DNA of 64,000 bases from Candidatus Raymondbacteria bacterium RIFOXYA2_FULL_49_16. Its GTDB lineage: Bacteria; Fibrobacterota; OXYB2-FULL-49-7; XYB2-FULL-49-35. Of the stretch, positions 26,270-52,490 are shown one piece after another; positions within the stretch are counted from its first letter, which is position 1, and every line of letters starts with the position of its first letter. A model generated the notes under the pieces. The model saw only the letters and a list, made by a program, of their open reading frames with translations. It did no database searches and was not told the origin of the DNA. The DNA lies in contig MFYT01000039.1 in the NCBI GenBank assembly GCA_001789205.1, positions 14,233 through 78,232 of the forward strand, written 5' to 3'. The translations under genes and the position numbers were made by a program.

Positions 26270-26292
26270 ATGCGGCCCCCTTGTTAAATTTG

Positions 26293-28284
26293 TCATTTTT
26301 TTTCCCGGAAATCCGTTGGAGTCATTCCGGTTATTTTTTTAAAATTCCGTTGAAAAAGACGAAGATCGGAAAAACCTGTTTCATATGCTGTTTCAGATAC
26401 TGATTTTATTCCCGCTGCCAGCAGTTCCTTTGCGCGTTCAATCCGAATGTTCGTCAGCGTAGAGAACGGCGTATCACTGATGATTGTTTTATAAATCGAT
26501 ACGGCCCTGTGGCCGCTTAAGCCAACAACCCGGCCAATGTCCTCGTTTGACAGTTTTTCCTGGTAGTGTTCATTGAGAAATCTGGTTATTGTGCGTGCAG
26601 TTTCCGTCATTGCCGGCGTGATAAGGGCTGCGGCGGCCTTTTTTTTAAGGATATATCGTATGATGGTTGTCCCAAGAAGAAGGGAAACAAGGGCCGCCAG
26701 GGAGATTATTATCCAACGGGGAAAAGGTCTTTTCTGAATGACAAAGAAAACAGGGGGCGCGTAGGAGGTTTTGCCGCCCCGTTCTACAAACTGGGTGCTT
26801 ATATGCCATATTCCCGCTTCGTGTATTGTTTTAAAGGCAAAGACAAGGGCCACGCTTCTGTTGGTGAATGCTGTTCGCTCCCATACGAGTGGCATCATCT
26901 TTGTGTCAATGGCGCTCCCGGAAAAATGCGCTTCTGAGAGTGGGACCCATTTGCCGCCTGAATGAATATATAACAGCTTCTCTTTGCGCAGGGATATATT
27001 GAAAATCCAATTTTTGGCAGGATCAAATATTTTCCACCGTTTGTCCCATTTATTGGTAAAAGACTCATGCGAAACATTCAGGAGCATATACATGGTCTCT
27101 ATGGAATCAGTGGGAAGGCCGATAGTGCAGACCATACTGTCATTATAATAAAACAGGTTGCCCGGTCTGTTGTGCAAAGATTGGTCCAATGACACTGAAA
27201 AACGGGTGTCAATTTTTACGGGAATGGGAGAATGAGAAACAAAGAAGGGATGGAAATCGCTCCACGCGCTCCATGCGCCAAAAATGTTTTTTGCCCGCGC
27301 CTTGACCCGGTAGCCCGTATTGTCCGTAAATGGCGTTGAAAACCTGACCGTGTCCCGGCAATAAAACAAGCTGTCTGTTACGTGAATATTGTCAAAGGAA
27401 CTTATTTCAAACGCCACGGAATCGGTGAAATTATCAGAGGTCCATGTGAAGGTCGGAGAAGGAGATACATATGATTCATCCTGCTGTGGATGGGTAATAA
27501 CAGGGATGGCTGGTTCCGGACCAATGCGCCGGGACGAAACAGTCAGATTATCGTACATGATTGATCTGACACCAGATGTTTGTTTTGTACCAGTGGCGCC
27601 CAGAATCAGCGCTTTGAAAGATTCCGCTTTTTCCCTGAAGAGTATCTTCTGCGCAACCATGAAAGTGCCATCAAAGAACAAAGAATCAAACAGCATGTCA
27701 TTGCGTAAGGCGAGGAACAATTCCAGGCAGTGCCATGTCCCAGGTCCTACCAGCATGCACGATTTATCATGGGGAAAATAGTCAGGATTGCCCGCGACGC
27801 TGTCGCGTACGCCAATGGCCAGGGAGAATTTCCCATCAAACACCCCCATTGAGTAGATCCAGGGATTAAGGCATCCTTTTTCCTTGAACGTGAGCAGTTC
27901 GAATGAAAAGATATTGAAGTCCGCAGTGGTCTTCAGTGTAGGATCAAAGGTTGGGGAGGGTATGATTTTAAAATAGAGACGGGTATAAAAACCGTTTGTA
28001 GCTAATTCGTCAGACTTGTGGAGCAGGACTTCCCGGTAGAGGTAGTTTGCGGAGCCAAGAGATACCTCGATAGCGCCAGTGCCCGAGAAGGGGGCTTCGT
28101 GGACTATGTTGGCCGCGTCTTCACCTTGGTGCTGCCAGAAAAACAACGAGGAATCAGACTCAAAATCATCCTTGAATAGGGTTTGTGCGCCTGCCTGTAT
28201 CTGGCAGAAAAGGCACGCTGCAACCGTAGCTTTGACAAAAATAGCCAATCGCCCCGTTCTTCCGAGTCTCAAGGGTATCCGCAT
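26293..28284 (-). CDS. Transmembrane one-component AraC-type regulator with ConA-like sensor domain
   Basis: 663 residues from the ATG at 28284, where AGAAAGAG lies in a plausible position; an earlier in-frame ATG at 28317 overlaps xylulokinase further. Order: signal/anchor segment (LAIFVKATVAACLFC), a ConA/LamG-like jelly-roll domain (starts FKDDFESDSSLFFWQHQGED; contains WHCLELFLALRNDMLFDSLF), a fibronectin type III-like module (SYVSPSPTFTWTS), then a Y_Y_Y-like region, a transmembrane helix at about 525-546, and a cytoplasmic AraC pair of helix-turn-helix motifs (residues 560-663; ETGFSDLRLFQRNFKKITGM is the second). No kinase or receiver domain is present. It is like the regulator at 45407-46990. 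The stop is 23 nt from the beta-helix start. Confidence 0.8.
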   Translation of the reverse strand: MRIPLRLGRTGRLAIFVKATVAACLFCQIQAGAQTLFKDDFESDSSLFFWQHQGEDAANIVHEAPFSGTGAIEVSLGSANYLYREVLLHKSDELATNGFYTRLYFKIIPSPTFDPTLKTTADFNIFSFELLTFKEKGCLNPWIYSMGVFDGKFSLAIGVRDSVAGNPDYFPHDKSCMLVGPGTWHCLELFLALRNDMLFDSLFFDGTFMVAQKILFREKAESFKALILGATGTKQTSGVRSIMYDNLTVSSRRIGPEPAIPVITHPQQDESYVSPSPTFTWTSDNFTDSVAFEISSFDNIHVTDSLFYCRDTVRFSTPFTDNTGYRVKARAKNIFGAWSAWSDFHPFFVSHSPIPVKIDTRFSVSLDQSLHNRPGNLFYYNDSMVCTIGLPTDSIETMYMLLNVSHESFTNKWDKRWKIFDPAKNWIFNISLRKEKLLYIHSGGKWVPLSEAHFSGSAIDTKMMPLVWERTAFTNRSVALVFAFKTIHEAGIWHISTQFVERGGKTSYAPPVFFVIQKRPFPRWIIISLAALVSLLLGTTIIRYILKKKAAAALITPAMTETARTITRFLNEHYQEKLSNEDIGRVVGLSGHRAVSIYKTIISDTPFSTLTNIRIERAKELLAAGIKSVSETAYETGFSDLRLFQRNFKKITGMTPTDFREKK

Positions 28285-29780
28285 GAGGTCATCTCTTTCT
28301 TCAGCGTTTGCAGCCATGTCTCATATACTTCACCATAAGCCTTTACGAGTTTTTTATCCGGTTCAAAGCGCCTAACGGTCCGTAGTCCGGCAAAGGCCTC
28401 CTGCGTATTTTTATAGATGCCTGCGCCAATACCAGCACCCCGCGCCGCGCCCTGCGCACCGTCTGTGTTGCATAGTTCAACAGTGGCGCCGGTCATAGCG
28501 GCAAACACATCGCAGAAGAGCGGGCTCAGGAAAATGTTGGCGTGGCCTGCGCGCACGGTCCTCACCTTCATGCCCATGCCGCGCATTATGGACAGTCCAT
28601 AATTCAGCGCAAAGACTATGCCTTCCTGTGCGGCTCGGAACAAATGGCCTGGCTTGTGTGTGGGGAAATTCAACCCATGGATCGCGGCCCTGAGGTCCTT
28701 GTTCCCAAGCGAACGTTCTGCGCCGTTGCCATAGGGGAGCATGACAAGCCCGTCAGCGCCAATGGGGGTGGCTGCGGCAAGATCGTTCATTTCCGGATAG
28801 GTCAATTCACTGCCCTTGTGTGCGGCAATGGTGTGTTTCAACCAGCTGTTCAGGATACCTGTGCCATTTATGCACAGCAATACGCCATAGCGAGGCTTTT
28901 TTGCCGAATGATTAATATGGACGAAGGTATTCACCCGTGACAGCGGATCATAGACCAGCTTGTCTGTTACGCCATATATCACCCCTGATGTACCTGCGGT
29001 AGTCGCTATTTCGCCCGGGGACAGCACATTGAGCGATAAGGCGTTGTTGGGCTGGTCTCCGCCCCGGTAGGTGATTGGCGTGCCTGTTTTCAGGCCAAGT
29101 TCTTCGGCAGCCTGTTTTGTCAGTTCCCCCTGCTGTGAGAATGAGGGGACAGGATCAGCGATAAGCTCCGGCGCGATTTTATAATGGGAGAGGAGTGTTT
29201 GCGCCAATCCATTACTCTTGAAATCCCACAAAATTCCTTCGGAAAGCCCGGAATATGTTGTCTTGATTTTACTGGTCATTTTCATGGCGATATAATCACC
29301 AGGGAGCATCATTTTATAGATTTGTTTATATATCTTTGGCTCGTTTTGCTGGACCCATTTTAATTTTGATGCGGTAAAATTACCCGGGGAATTAAGAAAA
29401 CGTTCCAGGCATTTTTTCGGGCCCATGGATTTGAAGGCTTTTTCGCCGGTCTCAACCGCGCGGCTGTCGCACCAGATAATGGCCGGACGCAAAACGCGCA
29501 TATTCCTGTCAACGATCACCAGACCGTGCATCTGGTACGATATTCCGATTGCGGCTATTGCGCTGGTATCAGTTTTTGAGGAAACAAGAATTTCTCGTAT
29601 GGCGTTTTTTACGTGTTTCCACCATGTTGCTGGATCCTGTTCCGCCCAGCCGGGTTTTGGGGCAACAATGGGGAGCTCTGTTTTCGGCGAGGTTGCTGAA
29701 GCGAAGGCAGCGCCGGTCGCGGCATCTACCAGGGAAGCCTTTACCGATGAACTGCCAATGTCAAGGCCAAGTAGAAACAT
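28269..29780 (-). CDS. xylB: Xylulokinase (FGGY family)
   Basis: 503 residues, the normal size for XylB. The ATP-binding start LGLDIGSSSVKASLVD (4-19), PGWAEQDPATWW, SYQMHGLVIVD, IIWCDSRA, and the C-terminal FGGY signature region (VRTVRAGHANIFLSPLFCDV, then GAQGAARGAGIGAG) place it with D-xylulose kinases. It phosphorylates xylulose for the pentose phosphate pathway. GGGGAG precedes the ATG. It overlaps the AraC regulator by 16 nt and is likely in one operon with it. Confidence 0.88.
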   Translation of the reverse strand: MFLLGLDIGSSSVKASLVDAATGAAFASATSPKTELPIVAPKPGWAEQDPATWWKHVKNAIREILVSSKTDTSAIAAIGISYQMHGLVIVDRNMRVLRPAIIWCDSRAVETGEKAFKSMGPKKCLERFLNSPGNFTASKLKWVQQNEPKIYKQIYKMMLPGDYIAMKMTSKIKTTYSGLSEGILWDFKSNGLAQTLLSHYKIAPELIADPVPSFSQQGELTKQAAEELGLKTGTPITYRGGDQPNNALSLNVLSPGEIATTAGTSGVIYGVTDKLVYDPLSRVNTFVHINHSAKKPRYGVLLCINGTGILNSWLKHTIAAHKGSELTYPEMNDLAAATPIGADGLVMLPYGNGAERSLGNKDLRAAIHGLNFPTHKPGHLFRAAQEGIVFALNYGLSIMRGMGMKVRTVRAGHANIFLSPLFCDVFAAMTGATVELCNTDGAQGAARGAGIGAGIYKNTQEAFAGLRTVRRFEPDKKLVKAYGEVYETWLQTLKKEMTSCGYP

Positions 29781-29896
29781 GATTACTCCCCGAAGAAACT
29801 GTGTGCAATTTAAGATATATCTTGGATATTGATGCAGTCAATACGCGGACAGTGCGCCTAAGAAAACGGATACAATTGGTATAAAAAACTTTGAAG

Positions 29897-30982
29897 TTAC
29901 AGGGCCACCCCGATGACAAATATTGTCACGACAATCCCGCCAATTACGGCCAGCACGGTGGTGACGGGGTTACGGGATTGGGTTGTCTCAGAAGGTGGTC
30001 GTTTTTTCCATGTAATGCCAAGGGCTGTGGTAATCCCCTGGTCCAGGTCATCATTAAAAACGATTTTATACCCGGCATCGAGGGACAGGCGGAAGTTATA
30101 GGTCCTGAAGAAGAGCATTCCCACCTTGCCGTTCAAGGCAAAACCGCTGTTTCGCTTGTTCGGGTCGTCAAAGGGGTCGGCGAAAACATAATCCAATCCT
30201 ATGCCGCCGCCGGCGTAGGGGGCGAAATCGCCCCGGGAGAACAGCTTTAGGAGCGAAAAATGAGTGCCAAGCTCCGCTCCCCATCCTACGTGAAGATCCC
30301 AGTTAAGTACCAGATCTTTGGGAAGTTCGAACCAGTTGACAAAATCAGTCATTAATACCTGCTTGTACTGATTTGTGTCATATCGATCTTCGTATGAATA
30401 GTAATAGTCGTAATTATAATCGTAATTTAAGTATGAAGACTTGCCTTGGGGAAATAAATAACCGAATTTGACGCCAAATGCATAAAAGCCCTCGCGTCTC
30501 CGGTGCTGTTCATCGGTCATTTCGGACTCGGTCACGTTGTCAATCGACGCGACGTCCTCCATTGTCTTCCCTTTTGCCAGGGCCTCTGCCATGCGTTTCA
30601 TGACAAATTCAAAATCTTCTACGGATTTACAGTCAAGACGGATGGAGGCCAGCAGTTTTTGGTCCGCAGTGCGATAGCGGTATCCTGCGACAATCCATTT
30701 TGACCCGAGCATGCGTGCGGAACCGTATACAACTTCTTCCGCTCCCATGGCGCTCGCGGTCGCAATGGCGCATTCCTTGGCACTACAGAGTACAGAATCA
30801 GGACCCGCCTTGATGGATCCTTTGTAAAACGTCTCGTAATCCTCAAAAAATAATTGGATTATCGTGTTTTGATTCGATGAATCGACACCTGCCAGTTGAA
30901 AGGGAAAAATAACAACATCACCAAAAATATTGTGCGTGTATATCAGGGAAAAAACCAAAACGAAAAATATTTTCATGATCAT
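29897..30982 (-). CDS. Envelope protein: TolB-N/CsgG-like domain and outer-membrane barrel
   Basis: 361 residues from the ATG at 30982 (AGGAG 5 nt upstream). The signal peptide is MIMKIFFVLVFSLIYTHNIFG. The N-terminal domain (VVIFPFQLAGVDSS to MKRMAEALAKG) resembles the CsgG/TolB-N-like domain of the gene at 20258-21538. The C-terminal part has alternating aromatic beta-strands (FYAFGVKFGYLFPQGKSSYL, DYVFADPF, LSLDAGYKIVF) like a small barrel, and a final hydrophobic helix (VLAVIGGIVVTIFVIGVAL). Function unknown. Confidence 0.6.
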   Translation of the reverse strand: MIMKIFFVLVFSLIYTHNIFGDVVIFPFQLAGVDSSNQNTIIQLFFEDYETFYKGSIKAGPDSVLCSAKECAIATASAMGAEEVVYGSARMLGSKWIVAGYRYRTADQKLLASIRLDCKSVEDFEFVMKRMAEALAKGKTMEDVASIDNVTESEMTDEQHRRREGFYAFGVKFGYLFPQGKSSYLNYDYNYDYYYSYEDRYDTNQYKQVLMTDFVNWFELPKDLVLNWDLHVGWGAELGTHFSLLKLFSRGDFAPYAGGGIGLDYVFADPFDDPNKRNSGFALNGKVGMLFFRTYNFRLSLDAGYKIVFNDDLDQGITTALGITWKKRPPSETTQSRNPVTTVLAVIGGIVVTIFVIGVAL

Positions 30983-31153
30983 ATGCACTCCTGATAAAAA
31001 GCGCTGGTAGAATTATCGATTTATAAAATAACAATTATTGTCCAGTAAAACAAATAAAAAGACATTGAACGCGAATTGAAAGTCCCTTCATTGCCTCGCT
31101 CATGCTGTATTTAGTATTTTAACGATCAATTTTCCAACATAAAGGGGTATTTC

Positions 31154-32356
31154 ATGACAACGATTTTTGACTCGGTTTTCACGTCCCGCAAAGGCCTTGG
31201 CGACATCAATGTTGCCGTTGATCCTTTTTCCGGCAAGGCAAACGTGTATATGCCCGCCATTACCCGCTATCCACACGGACCGCTTATGGATATGGGAAGC
31301 TTTTTTGACAGCGTTCAAAAACAGATGGTCCAGGGCGAACTCAAGCCAAAGATCGACGGCCGTCTCGATGTTGTCAAAGACCTGCACAATCCCGGCCTTG
31401 CCCGTTACAAGGACAAATACGTCATGATCGTCCGGTACCAAAACAACACCCGGTACAACGACCATTATCTGGCCTACAGCGACGATGGCATCGAATGGAA
31501 GCACAACCCTGTATCGCTCGATCTGCCCGGCCTTCCTGCTCAACCCAAAGCAGATAAGCGTAGAGAGGCCTATCCGGAAATATCCGAGAACAAAAAGTGG
31601 CGCAAAGGAGAGTTCTACGATCCCCGGGTCACACAAATCGGCTATGATTATTATATAACTTTTGCCATTGATTACGATACGTTGGAACCTGCTGGAAAAC
31701 CATATATAAATGTATGCGACAATGTGTTGTACCATACGAGAGATTTTAAGAAATTCAGGTATATCTCAACATTCGGCGGCAATACACGCAATGGCATCAT
31801 GTTTCCCAGGAAAATAGATGGATATTATTACATCGCGGCAAGGCCAAACCATGGGAATACATGCGCGAATTTCCAGGTCACGGGCCACGATAGCGTGCTT
31901 TTTCGGTCAAGAGACCTAAAGGATTGGGAGCCAGTGCATGTGCTTTTCCGCGGCGGCCATGCTTGGCTAGGCCATGCTGGCCCGGGCTTCCCGCCTTTTG
32001 AAATGAAGGATTATTGGGTCATGGGCGTCCACGGGGTTGAGATCCATGGGACCTTTGGCGTCCACTACCGGGGTGGTGTTGCGCTTCTCGATAAAAAGAC
32101 CCTCAAGGTTGTGCATGGGCCGGTACCTATCCTCGATCCGCAGGAACTGTATGAACTTACCGGGCTGGTGCACAATGTCTGTTTTCCCACAGGCCTCTTG
32201 TTCAGCGATGGCTGTGGCGATGGCGTGAAATCACGGGACACAAAGATCGCGCTCTACTATGGCGGATCAGACCATGTCATTCACGTGGCCCTTTCCACTG
32301 CCGGACGGCTCATGGACGTGGCCATGGGGAAATATAATCCGTTCAGGAATTGTTAA
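31154..32356 (+). CDS. GH130-family glycoside phosphorylase (beta-mannoside type)
   Basis: 400 residues with no signal peptide. The five-bladed propeller motifs are visible: LHNPGLARYKDKYVMIVRYQ, FYDPRVTQIGYDYYITF, and the C-terminal IALYYGGSDHVIHVALSTAG typical of GH130. The family phosphorolyses beta-1,4-mannosyl linkages, giving mannose 1-phosphate, in the cytoplasm. AAAGGGG precedes the ATG. Followed after 20 nt by a GH94 phosphorylase in an apparent operon. The exact substrate (mannosyl-glucose or mannobiose) cannot be read. Confidence 0.85.
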   Translation: MTTIFDSVFTSRKGLGDINVAVDPFSGKANVYMPAITRYPHGPLMDMGSFFDSVQKQMVQGELKPKIDGRLDVVKDLHNPGLARYKDKYVMIVRYQNNTRYNDHYLAYSDDGIEWKHNPVSLDLPGLPAQPKADKRREAYPEISENKKWRKGEFYDPRVTQIGYDYYITFAIDYDTLEPAGKPYINVCDNVLYHTRDFKKFRYISTFGGNTRNGIMFPRKIDGYYYIAARPNHGNTCANFQVTGHDSVLFRSRDLKDWEPVHVLFRGGHAWLGHAGPGFPPFEMKDYWVMGVHGVEIHGTFGVHYRGGVALLDKKTLKVVHGPVPILDPQELYELTGLVHNVCFPTGLLFSDGCGDGVKSRDTKIALYYGGSDHVIHVALSTAGRLMDVAMGKYNPFRNC

Positions 32357-32375
32357 TTTATAAGGAGAATTCAGC

Positions 32376-34679
32376 ATGAAATCCAGCTACGGGTACTTTG
32401 ACAAAAACGGCAGAGAATTTGTTGTTACCGAATACGATACCGTGATGCCCCTCATCAACTATTTCTGGAACAATGAGTTCATCTCTGGCGCCAACCATCA
32501 CGGCGCAGGCCTTGGCTGTTTTACCGAACGGACCATGCAATACATGCATCCCACCACACGCTGCATCATGATCCGCGATGAGAACCGCCATTTCTACCTG
32601 CGCGATGAAATGACCGGCGATGTCTGGTCTCCAGGCTGGTATCCCATGCTGAAAAAGCTTGACTCGTACAAATGCCGTCACGGATTGGGGTACACCATTG
32701 TCGAATCCAGCCGCAGAGGCATTCAGACATTGTTCCGCGTTTTCGTGCCGGTTAAGCAGGCAGCCGAGATATGGACCATCACCGTCAGGAACACCGGTAA
32801 AGGCAAACGGAAAATAAAGGTGTTTACCTTTGCTGATTTTCTTCTCAAGGGATATGAGGAATATGCGGACTACTCAAGCTGCCTCTATACTATTTACGAC
32901 AATTCGTTCAACGCCTTAAACGCATTTAATGATGCGTTCGAGCGTCCGCACGACCGGTTCAGCGCATTTGTGGCCTCCGATCGCAAACCGACTGGATACG
33001 ACGGTTCTCGTGCGGCATTTCTTGGCAGATATGGCACCATCAGTAATCCCCAGGCGGTTATAGAGGGCGCGTGTTCCAACAGCACGGCTAACACGGAAAA
33101 ACTCTGTGGTGCGCTTGAACATACAGTATCGCTCAATCCTGGCGAATCTGTTGTCTTCAATGTTCTTATCGGGTCAACCAATGCGCTGAAAACAACGCGT
33201 GATATGTGCGCAAAGCTTCTGAAAAGAGGCCAGGTAGAAAAGGAATTCAACAAACACCTTATAAAAGTCGATCGCGATCTTTCACATATTTTTGTTGAGA
33301 CACCTGACGAGAAACTGAATTGGTTGTTTAATAACTGGATTCCAAGGGAAATACAGCTGCATACTGAAGTTGGGACTGATACCGGCAGAGGTTTTCGCGA
33401 CATCATGCAGTCGGCATGGAGTTCCGCTTTCTATGATCCTGAAGGAAGCAAGGAAAAGATACTGGTTTCTCTTAAAGCGCAATATGCTGACGGCCATACG
33501 CTCCGTGGATGGAACCCTGTTGACGATCACTATTATTCAGATGGTCCCGTATGGATTGCGCCAACGGTTAATACATACCTGAAAGTAACAGGAAATTACG
33601 ATTTTTTAAAGATCAGGGTTCCCTACTTCGATAAAGGTTCTGGTTCGGTATGGGAACATATTCTGGCTTCTTTGTACAACGCTACAGATGACATCGGCGC
33701 CCGCGGTCTCGTGCGCTGCAGGTATGGTGACTGGAACGATTCCGTTAATGGTATAGGGATCAAAGGCAAGGGTGAGTCTGTTTGGACTTCCATTGGAATT
33801 GTTTTTGCTCTTAATGAAGCGATTGAAATTGCCGAGAATGTCCTGGGTGATATAAAGGTTGCCGAGGGATTAAAACGCCGTAAGGAAAAGTTGACCCGGG
33901 CGATCCAAACGAAAGGATGGGATGGCAATTGGTATCTTCAAGGCATCAACGATGCTGGCGCGAAAATAGGCTCCCATGAGGAAAAAGAGGGGAAATATTA
34001 TTTAAACTCACAAACATGGGCCATTTTAGCAGGCATTGCCAAAGGCGATCGTTTAAAAAAGATAGTTTATATTATTGACAAAAAACTCGATTGTAAAAAT
34101 GGATCCATGGTGTTGGCTCCTGCATACACAAAACCAAATCCCGGTATCGGTCGTATTTCCTGGTTCAGGCCCGGGATGTGGGAGAACGGCGCGCCGTATT
34201 GTCATGGCGGCGCTTTTAAAGTTGTTGCCGATACCTATCTGGGTAGGGGTGACAAGGCTTATGATACGCTCACGAAAATCCTGCCCGACTCAAAGAGAAA
34301 TCCGTCAACGCATTCGGGCTGTCCACCCTATGTATGTACCAATATGTACTTCGGTCCCGATCACTCGCGGGAGGGACAGATACTCTATTCCTGGATCACC
34401 GGCACTGCCACATGGCTTTTTAGGGCTCTTACGGTCCACATGATCGGCGTCAAACCTGAATACGACGGTCTTATGATGGAACCGTGCATGCCTTCGCATT
34501 GGAAACGGGCGCGTCAGGTCTGCAAATTCCGGGGTGCGGAATACGATATCACTGTCCTGAATCCAAAGGGCAAACAGACCGGTGTTTCGGCCGTCACCGT
34601 TGACGGTAAAAAGATAGCCGGTAATTGTGTGCCGAATTTCAGAGATGGGAAAAAACATACGGTCATTGTGGTCATGTAG
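32376..34679 (+). CDS. GH94-family cellobiose/cellodextrin-type phosphorylase
   Basis: 767 residues, cytoplasmic. Typical blocks are YGYFDKNGREFVVTEYDTVM at the N-terminus, GHTLRGWNPVDDHYYSDGPV, and YGDWNDSVNGIGIKGKGESV, whose Asp-Trp-Asn-Asp region holds the catalytic acid. Family members split beta-linked disaccharides or oligosaccharides with phosphate. Specificity (cellobiose, laminaribiose, chitobiose) varies and is not determined. AAGGAG precedes the ATG. Second gene of the operon with GH130; together they suggest energy-saving uptake of mannan- or glucan-derived oligomers. Confidence 0.88.
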   Translation: MKSSYGYFDKNGREFVVTEYDTVMPLINYFWNNEFISGANHHGAGLGCFTERTMQYMHPTTRCIMIRDENRHFYLRDEMTGDVWSPGWYPMLKKLDSYKCRHGLGYTIVESSRRGIQTLFRVFVPVKQAAEIWTITVRNTGKGKRKIKVFTFADFLLKGYEEYADYSSCLYTIYDNSFNALNAFNDAFERPHDRFSAFVASDRKPTGYDGSRAAFLGRYGTISNPQAVIEGACSNSTANTEKLCGALEHTVSLNPGESVVFNVLIGSTNALKTTRDMCAKLLKRGQVEKEFNKHLIKVDRDLSHIFVETPDEKLNWLFNNWIPREIQLHTEVGTDTGRGFRDIMQSAWSSAFYDPEGSKEKILVSLKAQYADGHTLRGWNPVDDHYYSDGPVWIAPTVNTYLKVTGNYDFLKIRVPYFDKGSGSVWEHILASLYNATDDIGARGLVRCRYGDWNDSVNGIGIKGKGESVWTSIGIVFALNEAIEIAENVLGDIKVAEGLKRRKEKLTRAIQTKGWDGNWYLQGINDAGAKIGSHEEKEGKYYLNSQTWAILAGIAKGDRLKKIVYIIDKKLDCKNGSMVLAPAYTKPNPGIGRISWFRPGMWENGAPYCHGGAFKVVADTYLGRGDKAYDTLTKILPDSKRNPSTHSGCPPYVCTNMYFGPDHSREGQILYSWITGTATWLFRALTVHMIGVKPEYDGLMMEPCMPSHWKRARQVCKFRGAEYDITVLNPKGKQTGVSAVTVDGKKIAGNCVPNFRDGKKHTVIVVM

Positions 34680-35002
34680 CAGTATTTTCGCCAAGGTATG
34701 GATGCCGCACTATTAGGAGTGTTGTCTGGTATGTTGTAGCGGCAGAAAGGTGAAAAAATGACTGGTATGAATACTGCGACGATTAAAAGAATATGCACGC
34801 TGCCACAGAACAATAGTTTCTTCCTGTTTGGCGCAAGAGGAAACTGATAGGATTTTTCTTTTTTCATGCTGAGCCGCATTTTTCGTCCGCTCGTTGCGGG
34901 TTTTGGATACGGTGTTCGATATTGCCTTCTTCGCGCCCCGCATTTTTTAAAAACCGGGCCGGATTTCGGCCGTATCATACCCCAGCATTTCGGGCATTTC
35001 AA
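34514..35002 (-). CDS. Possible zinc-ribbon membrane protein, antisense overlap with GH94
   Basis: From a TTG start at 35002, with an excellent Shine-Dalgarno GAGGTGATCC just upstream, the frame reads KCPKCWG then FKKCG, a short zinc-ribbon-like start, and later one hydrophobic helix (LLFCGSVHILLIVAVFIPVI). The last 55 codons lie antisense to the end of the GH94 gene and look like its shadow, so the true C-terminus may have been lost by frameshift. Weakly supported. The sequence does not match a family I recognise. Confidence 0.3.
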   Translation of the reverse strand: MKCPKCWGMIRPKSGPVFKKCGARRRQYRTPYPKPATSGRKMRLSMKKEKSYQFPLAPNRKKLLFCGSVHILLIVAVFIPVIFSPFCRYNIPDNTPNSAASIPWRKYCYMTTMTVCFFPSLKFGTQLPAIFLPSTVTAETPVCLPFGFRTVISYSAPRNLQT

Positions 35003-35026
35003 GGGATCACCTCAAGGGCGTTCTTT

Positions 35027-35209
35027 TTAAACAAGCATTCGAGCCTTTTCATACGCCTTGTTTGACGAGGCGAAGATTTTCTCCTCCGTCTGGAAAATAT
35101 TCTCCTGTCCCAGCACTGCGGTCATGCCGGTCTTGTCAAAAAACCGCTTCAGTACCGGCGAAACGCCGCACAGGAGGATGACCGTGCCTTTCTGGTGTTT
35201 TTGATGCAT
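35027..35209 (-). pseudogene. C-terminal fragment of a SulP/STAS-type protein
   Basis: 60 codons reading GTVILLCGVSPVLKRFFDKT and AVLGQENIFQTEEKIFASS, which resembles the STAS domain at the end of SulP anion transporters. A stop codon lies directly upstream, so no transporter part remains. The neighbouring IS21 end and DUF4143 fragment support decay of this region. Confidence 0.5.
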
Positions 35210-35323
35210 TTAGCGGTGTTCCAAAACTTGGTGTTGCCGCGAAGATGATATTTTTAGGCGACTTTAAACAGTTAACGGATATGGGATTCAAGAATGCCGC
35301 ATTGGTGCGTTTTCCGATCCTAA

Positions 35324-36027
35324 CCGGCCACTGATTCCGATTTCATCCAGCCACCCATTCCGACGCATCCGGCCACCCCCTCCCCATGGTTGGGTGACTT
35401 GGTTTTCCAGCGAAGCGTTGTAAGACAATAATTTTATAATGTATTACTTTCTTTTCTTACGAAAAGGTAATATGGCAAGGAGACAGAGTATGCGGAGAAT
35501 CAAAGATGTCTTGCGGTTAAGGTTTGAGAACGGCATGAACCAACGCCAAGTGGCCAGATTGCTTGGTATAAGTCGGAGCACGGTACAGGAGTACTGGTAT
35601 CGATATGATGCCTTGGGCTTGGATTGGCCCCAAGGCGCGTTGCTATCGGATATGGTCCTGGAGGAACGGCTGTTTTCATCGGCCCTGGTTTCTTCTGTCA
35701 AACGAGAGGAGCTTGATTTTCTTTATGTGCATCAGGAGCTTCAACGGCGCGGGGTGACCTTGCAGTTGCTGTGTGAGGAGTATAGGAAGACCCATTCCCA
35801 GGGTTACCAATACAGCCGTTTTTGCGAGCGGTACCGTTCTTGGGCGCATGGGCTGAAGATATATATGCGGCAGGTCCACAAGGGCGGGGAAAAAGTATAC
35901 GTTGATTATTCTGGTAAGAGGCCTCATATTGTGGACTCTGCCACCGGGGAGATTCAGGAGAAGGAGTTGTTGGTGATGGTCTGGGGCGCCAGCAACTATA
36001 CGTACGTGGAGGCCCAGGATTCGCAGG
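35324..36027 (+). mobile_element. Truncated IS21-family element with partial istA
   Basis: The left end shows three iterated motifs of the form CCGGCCAC or CCAGCCAC spaced 22-23 nt (35324, 35347, 35369), each near an ATTCCGA-type word, typical of IS21 subterminal repeats. From 35472 (GAAAAGG upstream) the frame MARRQSMRRIKDVLRLRFEN encodes the IstA helix-turn-helix and the start of the DDE core (VYVDYSGKRPHIVDSATGE). Homology ends near GASNYTYVEAQDSQ at about 36027. The rest of istA, istB and the right end are missing. Confidence 0.8.
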
Positions 36028-36030
36028 TGG

Positions 36031-36333
36031 ATGAATATGGAAATACAAAAAGCCGCCAAACGGTTGCGTGAAGTGCTGGACGAGGCAGTACCGGATGGAA
36101 TAGAGAAGGCCGATTTCATACTCAACAGGGGGGCGATTGCAATTGAGATAAAAGGAAGCTCTCAGGTCGACGATGCCTCGCTAAAGGGGCTGAAGGCCTT
36201 TTGTGAAGATTATGCGCCAGAAAGGGCCATTGTAGTCAGTAATGAATCAAGGCCCCGAAAACATGGTTCCATGGACATTATACCCTGGCGCGATTTTTTA
36301 GAACGTCTTTGGAACGGTGTGATTGTGCGCTGA
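36031..36333 (+). pseudogene. C-terminal fragment of a DUF4143 AAA ATPase
   Basis: 100 codons including GIEKADFILNRGAIAIEIKG, LKGLKAFCEDYAPERAIVVS and IIPWRDFLERLWNG, the C-terminal nuclease-like DUF4143 region. The P-loop domain is absent, having been replaced upstream by the IS21 fragment. Related full-length genes are at 47093-48478 and 48558-49703. Confidence 0.75.
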
Positions 36334-36367
36334 ACGGAGATTATAATTGAATTGATACTACTTGCTT

Positions 36368-38250: not shown

Positions 38251-38473
38251 CAGAGTTCCTTTATGTTTTATTAGTAGTAAATAACAAAATTACCAAAGAC
38301 CATTCAAGAATAATAAAAATCGGACTTTTTTGTCAAAATATTTGCTAAAAAGAATGGCGGATTGTGACAAGAATGTCGTACCAAACACCAAAATTATCCT
38401 TCACTATTTTTTCATCAGGGAAAAGCCATTGATTTCAAAGGTTTTAATCAACCAGGCACGTTTTTATGTTAGG

Positions 38474-38489
38474 TGTGGTTGAAACCACA
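38474..38489. promoter_or_regulatory. Palindrome before the first VWA gene
   Basis: TGTGGTT (38474-38480) and AACCACA (38483-38489) are inverted around 2 nt, just ahead of AAAGGAGG and the TTG start. It may be an operator or a leader hairpin. Confidence 0.4.
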
Positions 38490-38506
38490 TTCACAAAGGA
38501 GGCTGC

Positions 38507-40879: not shown

Positions 40880-40893
40880 CAAAGGGGAAAAAC

Positions 40894-42972
40894 ATGCGTA
40901 CCATAGCACTTATTATTGTCCAGGCGTTTTTGTTGTGCGCGGGACACGCGCACGCTGATGCGGTCATGCGTCCGGTTGATCCATCGTATCCGGGTACTCT
41001 GTTCAGGCATACCCTGACCGAGGTCACCGTGACCCTGCACGGCTCTATCGCGGAGACAGAGGTGTATTGCGAATTCATTAACGAATGGGACCATGCCACA
41101 GGTGGTGTCTTTTCCTTTCCCTTGCCCATGGACGCGAATGCCACGCAGATGTCCTTTGGCAAGAGCCTGGTGTTTTACGACGCGATACTCAAACCGGTCA
41201 TACAGTCCAATACGCCAGGTACGGGCGCGGGCGGGTTTGCGGCTGAACTCAACGCCTATCTGGGAAAAAACGCGGTTAACCTGAAAATAGATACCATTGC
41301 CGCTGGCGCTGTGCAGCAGATATACCTCAAATATATCCAGCGGTTGCCATACTACAATGGCAGCCAGCACTATGCGTATCCATTGGCGTCAGGGGTTTTT
41401 CAGCCCAACCCGCTCGCTTCCCTGGGTATAACCGTGCGCGTGTTTCCCGGACCTGCCTTGCATACGTTTGCCTCGGCTTCCCATGCCGCGGGCTGGCGCG
41501 CTTTGCAGGCGCCTGGCAATGTCAGCGAATACCGCTACGAGGCGTCTAAAGTCTATCTGGAACGTGATCTGCGTTTCTCCATTGCTATGGGCCATAGTAC
41601 CATGCAAGCTGAACTCTATTCAGCCGCGGGCCGCAATGGCACAGGGTATTTCGCCTTTTCCCTGTATCCTGCGTCCGCCTGCTCCCGCGCCGATGTTTTC
41701 AACAGAAACATCGCCTTTGTGCTCGATGTGTCGCGCAGCATGGCCGGCTACAAGCTGCAGCAGAGCTGCGAGGCAATCAAGGCGTGCATTGGCCAGCTCG
41801 ACGCGAACGACCGTTTTTCCATCATCGCCTTCAGCGACCTTGCGCAAACGGTCCTGGGACCCCTGCCCGCGAACGCGACTTCGCACGCTGCGGCCAGTCA
41901 GGCGCTCGATTCGCTCGCGTTGCTAAAAGGCCCAAGCGCCACGCAGCTTGCGCCCGCCCTTGCCAGCGCGATTAGCGCGGTGACCGGCAGCGGGTATGCG
42001 CCCATTGTGGTTGTGTGCACGGACGGCTTTTCTCCTTGCACGCCCGACGATATTGTCAACACGGCCAATGCCAGCATTTTTACGCTGGGCCTGGGCCAGG
42101 ATGTTTCGCGCGCCCGGCTCGAGGCCATTGCCTGTCGCAACAACGGTTTTGCCGCGTTTATAGGCGAGAATGAGCCTGTGGCACAGTCCATTATCGCGCT
42201 TTTCGACGCGGTCAAGCATCCAACCATCAACAGTTTCATGCTTGATTTTGCCGGCGCCATTGTTCGTGAACTACTGCCCGATGCGTCTCCCTACACCTTC
42301 TTTAACGGCCTGGGATATTTCATTGCCGGGAAATTTGGCGTTCCGGGCGCGCACAACGCGGCCATGGGCGGCCATACTGTCACCGGAGATCTGAACGATT
42401 TTTTCAGCCTTGAGTTCAATGGAGACACGGCTAGCGCTGATCTGCGGTTTGTGGAACAGCTTTGGGCGGCCGAGAAGATCAAGGCATGGGAACGGGAGAT
42501 CGAAGTGTATAACAGGGCGACCCAGCTTCGCGATTCGGTCATTGCCCTCAGTCTTGTGTATAATGTCAAAAGCCAGTTCACCTCGTTTTGGGCCGACACC
42601 GCCGCCCGTCCAGCGGACAGCATCTATGTCGAGGACGAAGGCACGAGTGTCATTGTGTCCGTGGATTCGGTTCCCGGCGCAGCGCCAGGCGCCATGGCGC
42701 TTGCCGTCACTCCCAATCCTTTTAATCCCGATACCTGGATCCGGCTTACCCTTCCCGCAACGGCAAAAGCAGGGGTCGCGGCCATTGCCATCTACGATCT
42801 TGCGGGCCGCCTGATTTCGATCGTCAAACGGAACGTTTCGGGAAATGCCGCGCTTGTGGTCCATTGGAACGGCCGCACCGCGTCAGGATTGCAGGCTGCC
42901 AGCGGAGTCTATGTGGTGATATGCGAATATAGCGGCCACAAGGTGCATACGCGGATCTCACTGGTTCGGTGA
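40894..42972 (+). CDS. Secreted VIT-VWA protein with sorting tail
   Basis: 692 residues, AAAGGGG upstream. Signal peptide MRTIALIIVQAFLLCAGHAHA. Residues about 25-160 form a VIT domain (LTEVTVTLHGSIAETEVYCE, FSFPLPMDANATQM). The VWA domain starts near residue 269: NIAFVLDVSRSMAGYK has the DxSxS MIDAS, then DRFSIIAFSD. The tail has TPNPFNPDTW and IYDLAGRLISIVK. VIT-VWA pairs occur in inter-alpha-trypsin-inhibitor-like proteins; bacterial versions have unknown roles. Follows the first VWA gene in an apparent operon. Confidence 0.85.
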   Translation: MRTIALIIVQAFLLCAGHAHADAVMRPVDPSYPGTLFRHTLTEVTVTLHGSIAETEVYCEFINEWDHATGGVFSFPLPMDANATQMSFGKSLVFYDAILKPVIQSNTPGTGAGGFAAELNAYLGKNAVNLKIDTIAAGAVQQIYLKYIQRLPYYNGSQHYAYPLASGVFQPNPLASLGITVRVFPGPALHTFASASHAAGWRALQAPGNVSEYRYEASKVYLERDLRFSIAMGHSTMQAELYSAAGRNGTGYFAFSLYPASACSRADVFNRNIAFVLDVSRSMAGYKLQQSCEAIKACIGQLDANDRFSIIAFSDLAQTVLGPLPANATSHAAASQALDSLALLKGPSATQLAPALASAISAVTGSGYAPIVVVCTDGFSPCTPDDIVNTANASIFTLGLGQDVSRARLEAIACRNNGFAAFIGENEPVAQSIIALFDAVKHPTINSFMLDFAGAIVRELLPDASPYTFFNGLGYFIAGKFGVPGAHNAAMGGHTVTGDLNDFFSLEFNGDTASADLRFVEQLWAAEKIKAWEREIEVYNRATQLRDSVIALSLVYNVKSQFTSFWADTAARPADSIYVEDEGTSVIVSVDSVPGAAPGAMALAVTPNPFNPDTWIRLTLPATAKAGVAAIAIYDLAGRLISIVKRNVSGNAALVVHWNGRTASGLQAASGVYVVICEYSGHKVHTRISLVR

Positions 42973-43083
42973 GACTGGCTATTTCTTGAAGCATGCCTAT
43001 TCCGGCATTGCCCTTGTATTGCGGCAGTGCCGGTTTCTATTTTATGACTGCCTTTTCATCCCTTTTTCACAAAGGACACGCCT

Positions 43084-43521
43084 ATGAAGGTGACAGTCAC
43101 GACCGACCAGTATAAGTCCCTGCTCCACCTGGTTTATCTTGGCAATTGGATGGCGAACAGCTACCGTGAAACGCCCCTTGATGAATTCGATAAGATCGAG
43201 GAGTTCATCTTTTCCCTTGCGCCCGCTGCGGGACTCGACGAATGGGTCACATTTTCACACGAAGATAACCGGCTCCATGCGTCCGAAGGCTTTGACGAGA
43301 CCCTCATGGAATTCCTCGACGACTATGACGAGAATACTTTCTGGGAGTCGTTTGTTCAGCGCATGGCCCGCCGCGACCTTGAACGGGAGGTGGGGGTCGA
43401 CACGGTCATTGCGCTTGCTCCCGATGCGCTCCAGGAGAAACTGCAGCCGCACGTGGAACGCTGGGCGCAAGAAATAGATGAAAATGGGCTCGAACGGATA
43501 GTTGTGGAGAAGGGGTCTTGA
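43084..43521 (+). CDS. Conserved hypothetical acidic protein
   Basis: 145 residues, AAAGGA upstream. No signal peptide or membrane segment. Acidic with LDEFDKIEEFIFSLAP and FDETLMEFLDDYDENTFWES; no recognised motif. Small cytoplasmic proteins of this kind are reported as hypothetical. Convergent with the lipoprotein gene. Confidence 0.6.
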   Translation: MKVTVTTDQYKSLLHLVYLGNWMANSYRETPLDEFDKIEEFIFSLAPAAGLDEWVTFSHEDNRLHASEGFDETLMEFLDDYDENTFWESFVQRMARRDLEREVGVDTVIALAPDALQEKLQPHVERWAQEIDENGLERIVVEKGS

Positions 43522-43533
43522 TCAGCCCGGTCT

Positions 43534-44241
43534 CTAGAGAAAATATTCGGGGAAAGCGCCTTTTATTATATCAGCGACTTCGTCCAGTTTTATTTCCTGA
43601 ACATTTTTCGCCAGGCCATTGATAAGCAGGGTTTGGGCCGTGGTCAGCGGGCTCTTCTCTATCGGAAGCGCCAGACAGAAAAAGAGGGTCTCTTCGGCCG
43701 CGCGTTCAGCAGCGCCGGGTGAACTGGCGCGCGTCCTGCCGATGTAGTCGAGAAGGGCCAGGGAGATGCCTGCAACCGTACGGCATGCTTCTTTCCGGTA
43801 CTCATCAACATTGCCGAATTCCTCGGCCAGCGTGTGCAGCTTTGTATAGGCGGGGTCAAACTCCACGATCGCTGGCATAAGGAGTTCCATTTCTTTTTTC
43901 GCCTGATCGCGCGAATTCGCTTGCAGCGCGTCCTTCAACAGGCCGCAACGCAGCAGGTTGCGCGCGCGCGATTGCGAAAAGGCCTTTTTCCCGGGAATAC
44001 CCTGTTCAAGGGCCAGGATGCCCGAATGGCGGTCGCGGAGAAAGGGGGCGATGCGGCGTCTGAAAAAGCTCTCACAGTCGGAAATTTTTGACGCTGCAGG
44101 CGCGCTCATGGCCATGAATTCGCGTACAGTTTCAGCGGTCAGCGGTTGTTTGCTGGCGCAGTCAATAAGTGGCAGGCAGCAGAGGCTGCCCACAAGGCAA
44201 AAAAGAACCAAATTTTTCCGTTTGAGCTCCGCGCGGTTCAT
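43534..44241 (-). CDS. Putative lipoprotein, unknown function
   Basis: 235 residues from the ATG at 44241, chosen because the lipoprotein signal follows (MNRAELKRKNLVLFCLVGSL, then LPLIDC as lipobox). The remaining 200 residues are mostly helical (AETVREFMAMSAPAASKISD, AAEETLFFCLALPIEKSPLT). No catalytic motif is recognised. Divergent from the polymerase delta prime gene. Confidence 0.55.
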   Translation of the reverse strand: MNRAELKRKNLVLFCLVGSLCCLPLIDCASKQPLTAETVREFMAMSAPAASKISDCESFFRRRIAPFLRDRHSGILALEQGIPGKKAFSQSRARNLLRCGLLKDALQANSRDQAKKEMELLMPAIVEFDPAYTKLHTLAEEFGNVDEYRKEACRTVAGISLALLDYIGRTRASSPGAAERAAEETLFFCLALPIEKSPLTTAQTLLINGLAKNVQEIKLDEVADIIKGAFPEYFL

Positions 44242-44310
44242 ATACCTTAAATATATAAAAATATCTTGCCTTTGACCCTGTAAACTTACATTTTTTCCAG
44301 CAAGAGAACA

Positions 44311-45396
44311 ATGAAATTCACCAATGTTATTTCGCGGAACCGGGCTGTCCAGGCATTGGAAACCGCATGTGCAGGTACTTCCATGCACCACGCGTACCTT
44401 CTGACCGGGCCCGAAGGCGTTGGCAAATTCGGCCTGGCGCTCGAGGCCAGCCTGGCCCTTTTATGCCGCAACAAGGACAACGCACCCTGCCGTTCCTGTG
44501 TTTCGTGCCGGAAACTTCTCAACTACAACCACCCCGATTTCAGGCTGATTTTTCCTTATGTTAGCGACAAGAGTTTCAGGGATGTTGCCAAAGAGCTGGG
44601 CTTGCTTGAAAAATACCGCAAAGAGACAGGGCTTCATCTTACTTACGAGGATATTTACGTCAAATATTATTCTGAGGCAGCCGTGCTTTCTCTTGGCCAG
44701 CCTTTCAGGAAGTTGAAGGCTTCCGAGGACCTAAAGGCCAAAAACCGGGAGATTTTTATCGACGTGCTCAGGCAGCTTGCGGACGAACTTACCATGCCTC
44801 CTTCTGAATCATCATTCAAGGCCGTGATCATTGCCGAGGCTGACCTTATGAACACTGAGGCGGCAAACGCCTTTCTGAAGACCCTTGAGGAACCGCGGCC
44901 GCATGTGCGGTTTTTCCTTTGCACATCCAGGCCCCACGCGCTGCTCGCCACAGTGCGCTCGCGTTGCCAGGAACTCAAGTTTCCCGAGCTTTCTGAAGAT
45001 GAGATTGCCGCTTTTCTAATAGAGCGCGAAGGGACCAATCCTGACGCTGCGCGCCAGGCTGCCCGCGCGGCAATGGGATCGCTGTCGGGCGCACTCGAGT
45101 ATCTTGACCCTGAAAACAGCGCCATACGGGACGAAGCCGCTGAACTGGTGCGGTGCATCGAGAAAAACGACAGCGCAGACGCCCTTACCCTGGCAGCCCG
45201 TTTTTCAAAGACACAGCTTCCTGAGAACCTCCTGCGACTCAGGTTCGCGGCCCAGGAGTTGCGCCAGCGGCCGGACATGTTTCCCAAAGTGCTCCCGAAA
45301 ATAACCGCGGCCTTGTATGCTCTCGAAAGAAAGGGCCAGCCCGAACTGGTACACACGGCGTTTTTCCTGGGTGCGCTCGAGGCTGCCCGTCAGTAA
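44311..45396 (+). CDS. holB: DNA polymerase III delta prime subunit
   Basis: 361 residues. Walker A GPEGVGKFGLA, a zinc-binding cysteine cluster (CRNKDNAPCRSCVSC), the clamp-loader block EADLMNTEAANAFLKTLEEP and the SRC motif (TVRSRCQ) identify a clamp-loader ATPase-fold subunit. The length fits HolB. Part of the DNA replication complex that loads the sliding clamp. It is followed after 11 nt by the AraC regulator. Confidence 0.9.
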   Translation: MKFTNVISRNRAVQALETACAGTSMHHAYLLTGPEGVGKFGLALEASLALLCRNKDNAPCRSCVSCRKLLNYNHPDFRLIFPYVSDKSFRDVAKELGLLEKYRKETGLHLTYEDIYVKYYSEAAVLSLGQPFRKLKASEDLKAKNREIFIDVLRQLADELTMPPSESSFKAVIIAEADLMNTEAANAFLKTLEEPRPHVRFFLCTSRPHALLATVRSRCQELKFPELSEDEIAAFLIEREGTNPDAARQAARAAMGSLSGALEYLDPENSAIRDEAAELVRCIEKNDSADALTLAARFSKTQLPENLLRLRFAAQELRQRPDMFPKVLPKITAALYALERKGQPELVHTAFFLGALEAARQ

Positions 45397-45406
45397 CGGT
45401 CATTGT

Positions 45407-46990
45407 ATGAAGCATTTTGCGGTATTTCTCCTTCTTTACGCCGCCACACTGTTTTCCGCAACATTCTATCGTGAGGACTTCGAAGGGAATGCGCGCGTCC
45501 AGTCGTGGATGACCACCACGGAAGAGCCTGTGGAACAGTGGCTGCGCATTGGGCCTGAATTCGCGTGCGAGGGAAACGCGGGCCTGCGCATTGGGCCTGG
45601 CCCCTGGCACATGCTCAGGAAAGATGTATTATGGAAAACCGATTCGCTGCTTTTTTCACAAGGATTCTATTTTCATTTTTTCCTGAGGATTGAAAGCGGG
45701 CCATTCGCCCTTGGACAGTCTTTTACCGACCTGGTCCATTTTCTCATGATTCCGCGATCAGGCGGTTATTATAGCAACCCAAGCCTTCTGGTTGAAAGGC
45801 GGGCGGACAGCTCCATCCACCTCTTTGCGCTCCTGCGCCAGAAAAAAGAGGACAATCCGCTCCGGGTGCCATTGCGCGAACAGGAGTCGCGCCTTGAGCC
45901 GGGTGCGTGGTACCGGATTGAATTTTTTGTGCGTATCAAGGGCGATTCGCTCTCAGACTCGCTTTTTATCAATGGCCGTTGCGCCGGGCAGGGCGCGGTG
46001 GCGCTGGTGGACCGCTATGGCCTTCTCCAAAGCTGGTATCTGGGTTTTGGGAATTCCCGCCTGCAGGGCGTTGCCGCTTTTGACATGGACAATATCATCA
46101 TTTCCGCTGACCGGTTGTCAGCATCGCTCAATCCCTTTTCGCTTTCAGCGCATGCGCGCAACGATTCCCTGGACTGTTCCCTGCTCTTTCCACCGCAGCA
46201 AGGGGTGTTTTATATTGACCTCAATCTTGGCGCGCAGGGATTTGCCGGGTCCGCGGGCGAACGGTTCGGCGTTTATGACGGTAAAAACAACCTGGTTTTC
46301 AGCTTGTACAGGTCTGATACTATTTTCTATAAAGGCGTTGAAGGGTCGAACCGGTGGTCCAAGACATGCCGTTCTGATACAGGAAGCCCGGTGTGGAGCA
46401 TTGACGCGACCGCGGGCGCGGCGCAATTGCGGATATGCATGCCCGCTGGTCTTTCACCTGGCGCATGGCACGCCCGTGCGCGCCTGATAAGCGAAGAGCA
46501 AGCGGCGCAATACGATTTTCCCGAGGCGGTTTTTATTGTTCCGGAAAGGCCGTGGTTTTTCCGGTGGTATAGTGTGCTTGCTGTCGCAGCGGTCCTGGGT
46601 CTGGTCTCGGGCGCGCTGGTGTTTCGGGCGCGTTTGCGGGAAGCCGCGTTGCCAGCGGAAATGCCAGGATCGTGGAAGCGGGCGGTGGATGATATTGAAA
46701 CCATGCTCCTCCAACGTTTTGGCGACGCGCAGCTTGATTCCAACGCCATTGCGGGCCATGCTGGGTTGAGCGTTAAAAAGGCCCAGCAGGTGTATCAGGC
46801 TGTGAAAGGAAAATCACCGGTCCAGCATTTGCGCGAGATACGGCTAGAACGCGCGTGTGTGCTGCTCAAGACCACGCAGAAGTCAGCGGCCGAGATTGCC
46901 TATGAGGTTGGTTTTTCAGATCCTATCATTTTCCAGAGAAACTTCAAGAAGGCCTTTTCCCTTACGCCAGGCCAATACCGCGACCAGTAG
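45407..46990 (+). CDS. Second transmembrane one-component AraC-type regulator with ConA-like sensor domain
   Basis: 527 residues from the ATG at 45407. Signal peptide MKHFAVFLLLYAATLFSA. The extracytoplasmic domain YREDFEGNARVQSWMTTTEE and WYRIEFFVRIKGDSLSDSLF is the same ConA/LamG-like fold as in the regulator at 26293-28284; here it lacks the fibronectin module. The transmembrane helix is at about 387-406 (WYSVLAVAAVLGLVSGALVF). The cytoplasmic part (about 425-527) has the AraC double helix-turn-helix (EVGFSDPIIFQRNFKKAFSL). It ends LTPGQYRDQ, and the same 9 residues are encoded again at 48487-48513. Confidence 0.8.
   Translation: MKHFAVFLLLYAATLFSATFYREDFEGNARVQSWMTTTEEPVEQWLRIGPEFACEGNAGLRIGPGPWHMLRKDVLWKTDSLLFSQGFYFHFFLRIESGPFALGQSFTDLVHFLMIPRSGGYYSNPSLLVERRADSSIHLFALLRQKKEDNPLRVPLREQESRLEPGAWYRIEFFVRIKGDSLSDSLFINGRCAGQGAVALVDRYGLLQSWYLGFGNSRLQGVAAFDMDNIIISADRLSASLNPFSLSAHARNDSLDCSLLFPPQQGVFYIDLNLGAQGFAGSAGERFGVYDGKNNLVFSLYRSDTIFYKGVEGSNRWSKTCRSDTGSPVWSIDATAGAAQLRICMPAGLSPGAWHARARLISEEQAAQYDFPEAVFIVPERPWFFRWYSVLAVAAVLGLVSGALVFRARLREAALPAEMPGSWKRAVDDIETMLLQRFGDAQLDSNAIAGHAGLSVKKAQQVYQAVKGKSPVQHLREIRLERACVLLKTTQKSAAEIAYEVGFSDPIIFQRNFKKAFSLTPGQYRDQ
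46961..46990 (+). repeat. Direct repeat, copy 1 (AraC 3' end)
   Basis: 30 bases encoding LTPGQYRDQ and the TAG stop of the AraC gene. The second copy is at 48487-48516. Their differences fall only in third codon positions and in the stop codon. Confidence 0.75.
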
Positions 46991-47021
46991 ATTTTAGCAT
47001 GAAAACGCGTTTTTTTGGCTT

Positions 47022-49703: not shown

Positions 49704-49973
49704 AACTATAATATAATCAAAGTGTTTATCTAAACGCAATGTTGTTTTGCTAATAGTTTATCAATTTAATTGTTTTGGTAACTAATAGTTCTAGTTATTG
49801 ATATTGAATAAGATATGATCATTTATGGTTGGTGTCGTATTCAGTGGCGCAGATGTCACCAGTTGACTAAAACCTCTTCGCCTGCTGAGATTATATGTCC
49901 ATAGTAATCCTGCTTCTTGAAGCCGCAATCCCGCACATACTATTTTATGGACGTTTCAACAACGGAGTTTCCC

Positions 49974-52392: not shown

Positions 52393-52490
52393 AAATAGTC
52401 AGCTTTTTTCTTAAAAAAATAATATAATACTATAAATAGTCAGCTATTTTTTATAAATAATCATTGTTATAGTACGGAGAATCAGCTATT
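52393..52490 (+). promoter_or_regulatory. Three phased copies of a TCAGCT motif upstream of the beta-helix gene
   Basis: The word TAGTCAGCT followed by a T-rich tract occurs with CAGCT at 52400 and 52441, and a diverged copy (AATCAGCT) at 52483. Spacings are 41 and 42 nt, about four turns of DNA, in AT-rich sequence ending just before the start. Candidate regulator binding sites. Confidence 0.5.

Follow-up and report, generated by a model that had tools for sequence, protein, structure and literature searches.

Can a sugar outside the cell be coupled to a promoter inside it by a single polypeptide? Two genes raise this question in a 64,000-nucleotide stretch of Candidatus Raymondbacteria bacterium RIFOXYA2_FULL_49_16 (contig MFYT01000039.1, positions 14,233 to 78,232 of the forward strand), referred to here as the window. 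A sequence-only reading of the window had given both genes one architecture, in which a signal segment, a jelly roll and one transmembrane (TM) helix precede a C-terminal AraC domain, and had proposed that they form a compact glycan-sensing design. We found that this architecture holds for both genes, at 26293-28284 (regulator 1) and 45407-46990 (regulator 2), and that it recurs across a large set of proteins in the same genome. We consider it likely that the two proteins belong to a large family, specific to this lineage, of one-component transcription regulators tethered to the membrane, which would sense glycans and activate adjacent operons for secreted proteins.

Domain architecture of the two regulators

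The two genes and their parts are as follows.

26293..28284, minus strand: regulator 1 (P0002, 663 aa), in the order signal peptide, jelly roll, Fn3-like insert, juxtamembrane domain, TM helix, AraC domain
28186..28284, minus strand: signal peptide of regulator 1, residues 1-33, a hydrophobic N-terminal segment
27517..28188, minus strand: Cip1/ConA-type jelly roll of regulator 1, residues 33-256, predicted from the family profile against Cip1 and the calcium-site columns
27235..27516, minus strand: Fn3-like insert of regulator 1, about residues 257-350, from the alignment, with the fold assigned by eye
26734..27198, minus strand: juxtamembrane domain of regulator 1, residues 363-517, without a Pfam family, from profile comparison
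26650..26712, minus strand: TM helix of regulator 1, residues 525-545, from the TM scan
26296..26598, minus strand: cytoplasmic AraC DNA-binding domain of regulator 1, from Pfam
45407..46990, plus strand: regulator 2 (P0001, 527 aa), in the order signal peptide, jelly roll, juxtamembrane domain, TM helix, AraC domain
45455..46123, plus strand: Cip1/ConA-type jelly roll of regulator 2, predicted from the family profile and calcium-site columns
46157..46543, plus strand: juxtamembrane domain of regulator 2, from profile comparison
46574..46636, plus strand: TM helix of regulator 2, residues 390-410, from the TM scan
46679..46987, plus strand: cytoplasmic AraC DNA-binding domain of regulator 2, from Pfam

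The gene boundaries given earlier were correct. Regulator 1 is a minus-strand gene, and the plus frame over the same interval is riddled with stops. Both proteins carry the C-terminal domain with two helix-turn-helix (HTH) motifs that defines the AraC/XylS class, matched by Pfam HTH_18 above cut-off (E=3.2e-15 for regulator 1 and E=5.7e-20 for regulator 2), and in both the single TM helix has positive charge on its inside flank. The AraC domain follows the helix after about 20-40 residues. Consistent with the earlier claim that no phosphorelay part is present, Pfam and NCBIfam scans found no kinase, receiver or phosphotransfer domain in either protein. The two are paralogs, with 28% and 23% identity across their two halves. 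The comparison also added two features that the earlier reading had not described, a juxtamembrane domain common to both proteins and the Fn3-like insert, which occurs in regulator 1 only.

A family of TM-AraC regulators

The sequence-only reading had suggested a search for other proteins with the jelly roll-TM-AraC order. This genome (5.43 Mb; G000) holds 14 full-length paralogs with the same domain order, regulators 1 and 2 included, which is far beyond chance. All 14 have an N-terminal signal, a single positive-inside TM helix and an HTH_18 match above the Pfam cut-off at the matching place. Sister regulators include four proteins with a related lectin-like domain (group B), six with CBM9_1, which scored above the Pfam gathering threshold and lies outside the TM helix, and one small TM-AraC protein. 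Thus the direct sensor-to-DNA-binding design extends to a set of 25 TM-AraC regulators, out of about 52 places in the genome with an AraC domain above cut-off.

Of 168 Fibrobacterota genomes, 2 have the juxtamembrane domain, apart from one further weak match. Eighteen copies are in this genome and 12 in Fibrobacteres bacterium isolate new MAG-297 (G001), which belongs to the same order, and a scan with the relatives' version of the domain returned Fibrobacteres MAG-297 loci only. The CBM9-TM-AraC order is spread phylum-wide, with full-length matches in several other families by TM scan and Pfam; CBM9_1 was confirmed by Pfam in eight of nine full-length candidates from other Fibrobacterota genomes. 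In Fibrobacteraceae-like genomes (our own reading of that family), matches above threshold cover the HTH part only. A first contig scan with the regulator 1 protein gave no match, and a plasmid search found none.

Hybrid two-component systems (HTCS) of Bacteroides likewise place a periplasmic glycan sensor and an AraC output in one chain, often beside the target polysaccharide genes (PMC3404733, PMC3878776), but they carry a kinase and a receiver between the two, where the regulators described here have only a TM helix and a short linker. The solved sequence closest to the DNA-binding domain is that of an HTCS protein (12aw_A, E=5e-11), as would be expected if the family consisted of degenerate hybrids that had lost kinase and receiver and were now inert or constitutive. 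We regard this as very improbable and set it aside, because the 14 paralogs have intact frames, as do the regulators of a second family of the order, because sister regulators have conserved candidate operators beside them (see below) and because the juxtamembrane domain does not resemble Y_Y_Y. The genome has no Y_Y_Y match above cut-off; this speaks against the common HTCS form there, other HTCS forms being possible.

The ectodomain resembles Cip1

Searches of Pfam, NCBIfam and the PDB with single sequences gave no match for the ectodomains of regulators 1 and 2. When a profile of the 14 family members was compared with the PDB, the sole significant match was the biomass-induced protein Cip1 of Hypocrea jecorina (3zyp, E=4.9e-4), with matching stretches at either end of the domain. 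Cip1 is a beta-jelly-roll protein, structurally nearest to a glucuronan lyase and an alginate lyase, and its calcium is held by D5, E7, S37 and D206 (PMC3764139). In the family alignment the column of D206 is D in 14 of 14 members and that of E7 is E or D in all 14; the D5 column is D in 10, and the S37 column is S in only 7. An F and a G beside these columns are invariant. The profile match, together with the conserved calcium-ligand columns, is the best support for reading the domain as a probable jelly roll. Cip1 itself is a free secreted protein without a TM or DNA-binding part.

Profile comparison places the jelly roll also in most members of the G001 set (E=1.2e-8) and in group B (E=2e-6), with no match in the L042/L050/L052 subset. 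The second conserved domain, which has no Pfam name and lies between the jelly roll (or the Fn3-like insert) and the membrane, is shared with group B and with the G001 relatives (98% probability, E=1.6e-13). O-antigen ABC transporters have a sugar-binding domain that it matches weakly (E=0.047), which is a lead only.

A glycan-type sensor is well supported by homology and context, through the Cip1-type calcium jelly roll, the CBM9 domain of the six sisters and a cargo of esterase, GH30, beta-helix and cellulose-binding types. This part of the earlier proposal stands; for the ligand itself, a glycan is what we infer.

Separately, the genome encodes several copies of a cytosolic AraC protein of about 560 aa with PAS-like N-terminal parts (L025:11608-13281, L037:4133-5818, L108:13573-15255 and L069) and a mid-stretch resembling a ConA-type domain; L069 matches the ectodomain profile with E=1.8e-10 over 52 positions.

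Secreted genes with sorting tails often follow the regulators

We asked what lies next to the regulators. Genes were called as non-overlapping open reading frames (ORFs), and sorting tails were found with a hidden Markov model built from this genome. Of the 24 scorable TM regulators, 14 have as their next gene, on the same strand and no more than 400 bp away, one with a sorting tail; among control genes from arbitrarily placed 20 kb stretches the figure is 3 of 191 (p=3e-13). Among AraC genes that lack a clear TM helix, the same test gave 0 of 6. Two of the negatives are probably positives: for L028_15601 the downstream gene exceeds the fetched stretch, its tail lying at C9:92781-93020, and at L025 the downstream esterase is split in two frames with the tail on the second. 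Cargo families include GDSL lipases, other esterases, GH30, the Sde182 cellulose-binding type, DUF6250, metallophosphatases, FAD oxidoreductases and beta-helix types.

One possible explanation for this association is a secretion feedback loop, in which the ectodomain would sense a signal other than a free oligosaccharide, such as secretion-machinery load, envelope state or the cargo itself. The clearest correlation is indeed with sorting-tail cargo, the cargo families vary (phosphatase, FAD oxidoreductase, esterases), and the calcium site is the only place where conserved binding residues were identified. However, the set has several forms of sensor domain, each of a carbohydrate-binding type (Cip1-like, group B lectin-like and CBM9), and among family members the ectodomains, at about 20-35% identity, diverge faster than the HTH domains, as expected if each binds a different ligand. 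We therefore think such a loop quite unlikely.

Several loci are of interest in their own right. The split gene at L025:2560-3737 is feruloyl-esterase-like and occupies two overlapping frames, owing to a frameshift or a sequencing error. In Fibrobacteres MAG-297, a 1262-codon frame with an open 5' end (L101:1-3789) joins a TM-AraC regulator, without an intervening stop, to a secreted beta-helix/chondroitinase-B-like protein; either this is a fusion or a stop was lost in assembly. The stretch of L028 plus L040 (C9:88000-95000) has a jelly-roll regulator, one tail-bearing cargo gene and a CBM9-type regulator in series. The genome as a whole has at least 150 listed sorting-tail matches, all above the Pfam cut-off, of 431 first-look candidates, and this set of secreted cargo resembling that of the type IX secretion system (T9SS) is unusually large.

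Tandem repeats as candidate operators

The gaps between regulator and cargo contain tandem repeats. Repeats with a period of 19-21 bp reached p<0.05 in 8 of 16 such gaps, compared with 1 of 30 control gaps, and other periods did so in 0-3 of the 16. Three gaps, at L028_15601, L030 and L031, share the pair RAAAWGMCGAA-N8-RAAAWGMCGAA, and the HTH domains of these regulators are 56-79% identical. With up to two mismatches allowed, the pair has exactly three sites in the 5.43 Mb genome, all directly after those three regulators. The reversed control has none, and about 4e-5 perfect matches are expected from base composition. In all three gaps the pair is followed, at 61-68 bp, by a TATATT or TATTTT hexamer.

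For regulator 2, the nearest HTH relative is L028_4603 (59% HTH identity), whose gap contains AAAAAGTC/AAATAGTC at 20 bp. Perfect AAAWARTC pairs with a spacing of 20 or 21 bp occur genome-wide only in that gap and at position 52434 of the window, where extra copies stretch the array over 52393-52462, after a GH94 gene and before three tail-bearing genes (52500-57550). Because the pairs are confined to these two places and the array precedes three secreted genes, we predict that it is the operator of regulator 2:

52393..52462, plus strand: predicted regulator 2 operator, an array of AAATAGTC-type repeats with 20-21 bp phasing

Such repeats also occur in G001: of its five regulators that have a secreted gene a short way downstream, three have them (L047, L083 and L086). 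For regulator 1 no operator was found. No repeats upstream of the kinase-regulator 1 operon were significant, and a resemblance between a stretch upstream of the kinase and one in the gap behind L022 was not confirmed genome-wide.

A proposed mechanism

We propose that the signal peptide would export the Cip1-like calcium-site jelly roll to the periplasm, where oligosaccharides from plant polymers, most probably of the plant wall, would reach and bind it. The juxtamembrane domain and the single TM helix would relay this change, probably through dimer formation or re-orientation. The AraC domain would remain at the membrane, bind tandem repeats of about 20 bp upstream of the promoter and activate, rather than repress, the nearby operon of secreted sorting-tail proteins, and proteolysis would not be needed.

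Alternatively, ligand binding could lead to cleavage near the membrane and free a soluble AraC fragment. The type I-like single-pass topology with a cytoplasmic DNA-binding domain does resemble that of intramembrane-proteolysis substrates. Yet no dedicated protease gene is conserved beside the regulators, and CadC, a comparable one-component regulator, acts as a full-length membrane protein (PMC5936718), so we consider this route unlikely.

Several points weigh against glycan sensing and activation of adjacent secreted operons. Jelly rolls also bind non-sugar ligands or serve as structural modules. Structure prediction, which the sequence-only reading had called for, gave two AlphaFold models that are too poor to count, with a mean pLDDT of 47 and 46 that is too low to judge the fold or a binding face, probably because the alignments are shallow. 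A Foldseek search with a weak model returned mostly Fn3/beta-sandwich chains, with the Emp47p lectin domain at rank 48, and was not used as evidence. Four of 13 scorable family members, including regulator 2, have no tail gene directly downstream, although in two of the four the tail gene is split or cut by the end of the fetched stretch. The 19-21 bp range, which is the spacing expected for AraC sites, was set after a first look at the gaps. No repeats were found in the gap tests for regulator 1 or its nearest paralogs, L021 and L022. Finally, a weaker repeat directly after the regulator 2 stop, before an AAA ATPase gene, is an alternative candidate operator.

Gene neighbourhoods in the window

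The genes around the two regulators are listed here.

24683..26296, minus strand: secreted beta-helix-type protein with a T9SS-like sorting tail, its start overlapping the regulator 1 stop by 4 bp
28269..29780, minus strand: FGGY-family (xylulokinase-like) sugar kinase, upstream of regulator 1 and overlapping its start
31154..34679, plus strand: GH130 and GH94 phosphorylase genes, from Pfam, running opposite to the kinase-regulator 1-beta-helix cluster
49917..52355, plus strand: GH94-family phosphorylase, from Pfam, directly before the predicted operator at 52393..52462
52500..54017, plus strand: secreted beta-helix-type protein with a FlgD-type tail, the first gene past the predicted operator
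54049..55158, plus strand: secreted sorting-tail protein, putatively in the same operon as 52500..54017
55196..57550, plus strand: secreted sorting-tail protein, putatively in the same operon as 52500..54017

As the earlier reading had noted, both regulators lie near beta-helix or GH94 genes: the beta-helix gene shares the 4-bp overlap with regulator 1, and the GH94 gene begins 2.9 kb past regulator 2. The beta-helix gene at 24683..26296 is a probable co-transcribed cargo of regulator 1. Its beta-helix was assigned partly by eye, and the NCBIfam matches to choice-of-anchor Q and a sorting tail are sub-threshold. The FGGY kinase and regulator 1 form a putative operon. The run-on frame of L101 mirrors the overlap at regulator 1.

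Between regulator 2 and the GH94 gene lie two AAA ATPase-type genes, one at 47015-48478 on the plus strand (AAA_14/DUF4143 by Pfam) and one at 48558-49739 on the minus strand (by resemblance), which may be later insertions. Elsewhere in the window, an IS3-like ORF start is fused to a PEGA/LpoB-like protein at 20258-21718 (minus strand), and an IS21-like fragment occupies 35439-36071 (plus strand). Both look like transposase remnants, and such ORF starts are signs of insertion elements.

Comparison with known systems

The earlier likening of the two proteins to ToxR holds for how they would work and fails for family membership. ToxR and CadC are also bitopic, lack a phosphoacceptor and join an extracytoplasmic sensor directly to a DNA-binding domain across a single TM segment, but ToxR starts with a winged HTH and ends with a periplasmic domain (PMC5936718), whereas the present proteins have the opposite order, with a C-terminal AraC domain as output. 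SusR-like regulators of Bacteroidetes are membrane proteins that bind maltose in the periplasm and activate polysaccharide genes; their C-terminal DNA-binding domain, however, is not significantly similar to any other known regulator, and reports of the family come from Bacteroidetes only (PMC3878776). The regulators described here differ from SusR in having a clear Pfam AraC domain (E=3e-15 or better) and in coming from Fibrobacterota.

We found no precedent in the open-licence literature for a jelly roll or carbohydrate-binding module fused through a TM helix to an AraC domain. RsgI-type anti-sigma factors of Clostridium thermocellum connect an outer carbohydrate-binding module through one TM helix to an inner regulator, with several paralogs bearing different modules. 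RsgI releases a separate sigma factor, whereas the TM-AraC regulators carry their own DNA-binding domain.

Compared with known membrane one-component regulation, the family expansion and the candidate private operators are unusual. The chances seem to us about even that the roughly 25 membrane AraC regulators, each with its own carbohydrate-binding ectodomain and a private operator beside one cargo operon, are the Fibrobacterota counterpart of the HTCS and extracytoplasmic function (ECF) systems of Bacteroidota. A recent review names three systems that commonly control bacterial polysaccharide-degradation genes and does not mention Fibrobacter (PMC10766802). If the proposal is true, the family would provide a further and very simple route from a sugar outside to a promoter inside, in a cellulose-degrading phylum. 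Each regulator offers a candidate sensor domain, and many also offer a candidate operator and target. The parts look modular, which would make them of interest for building glycan biosensors.

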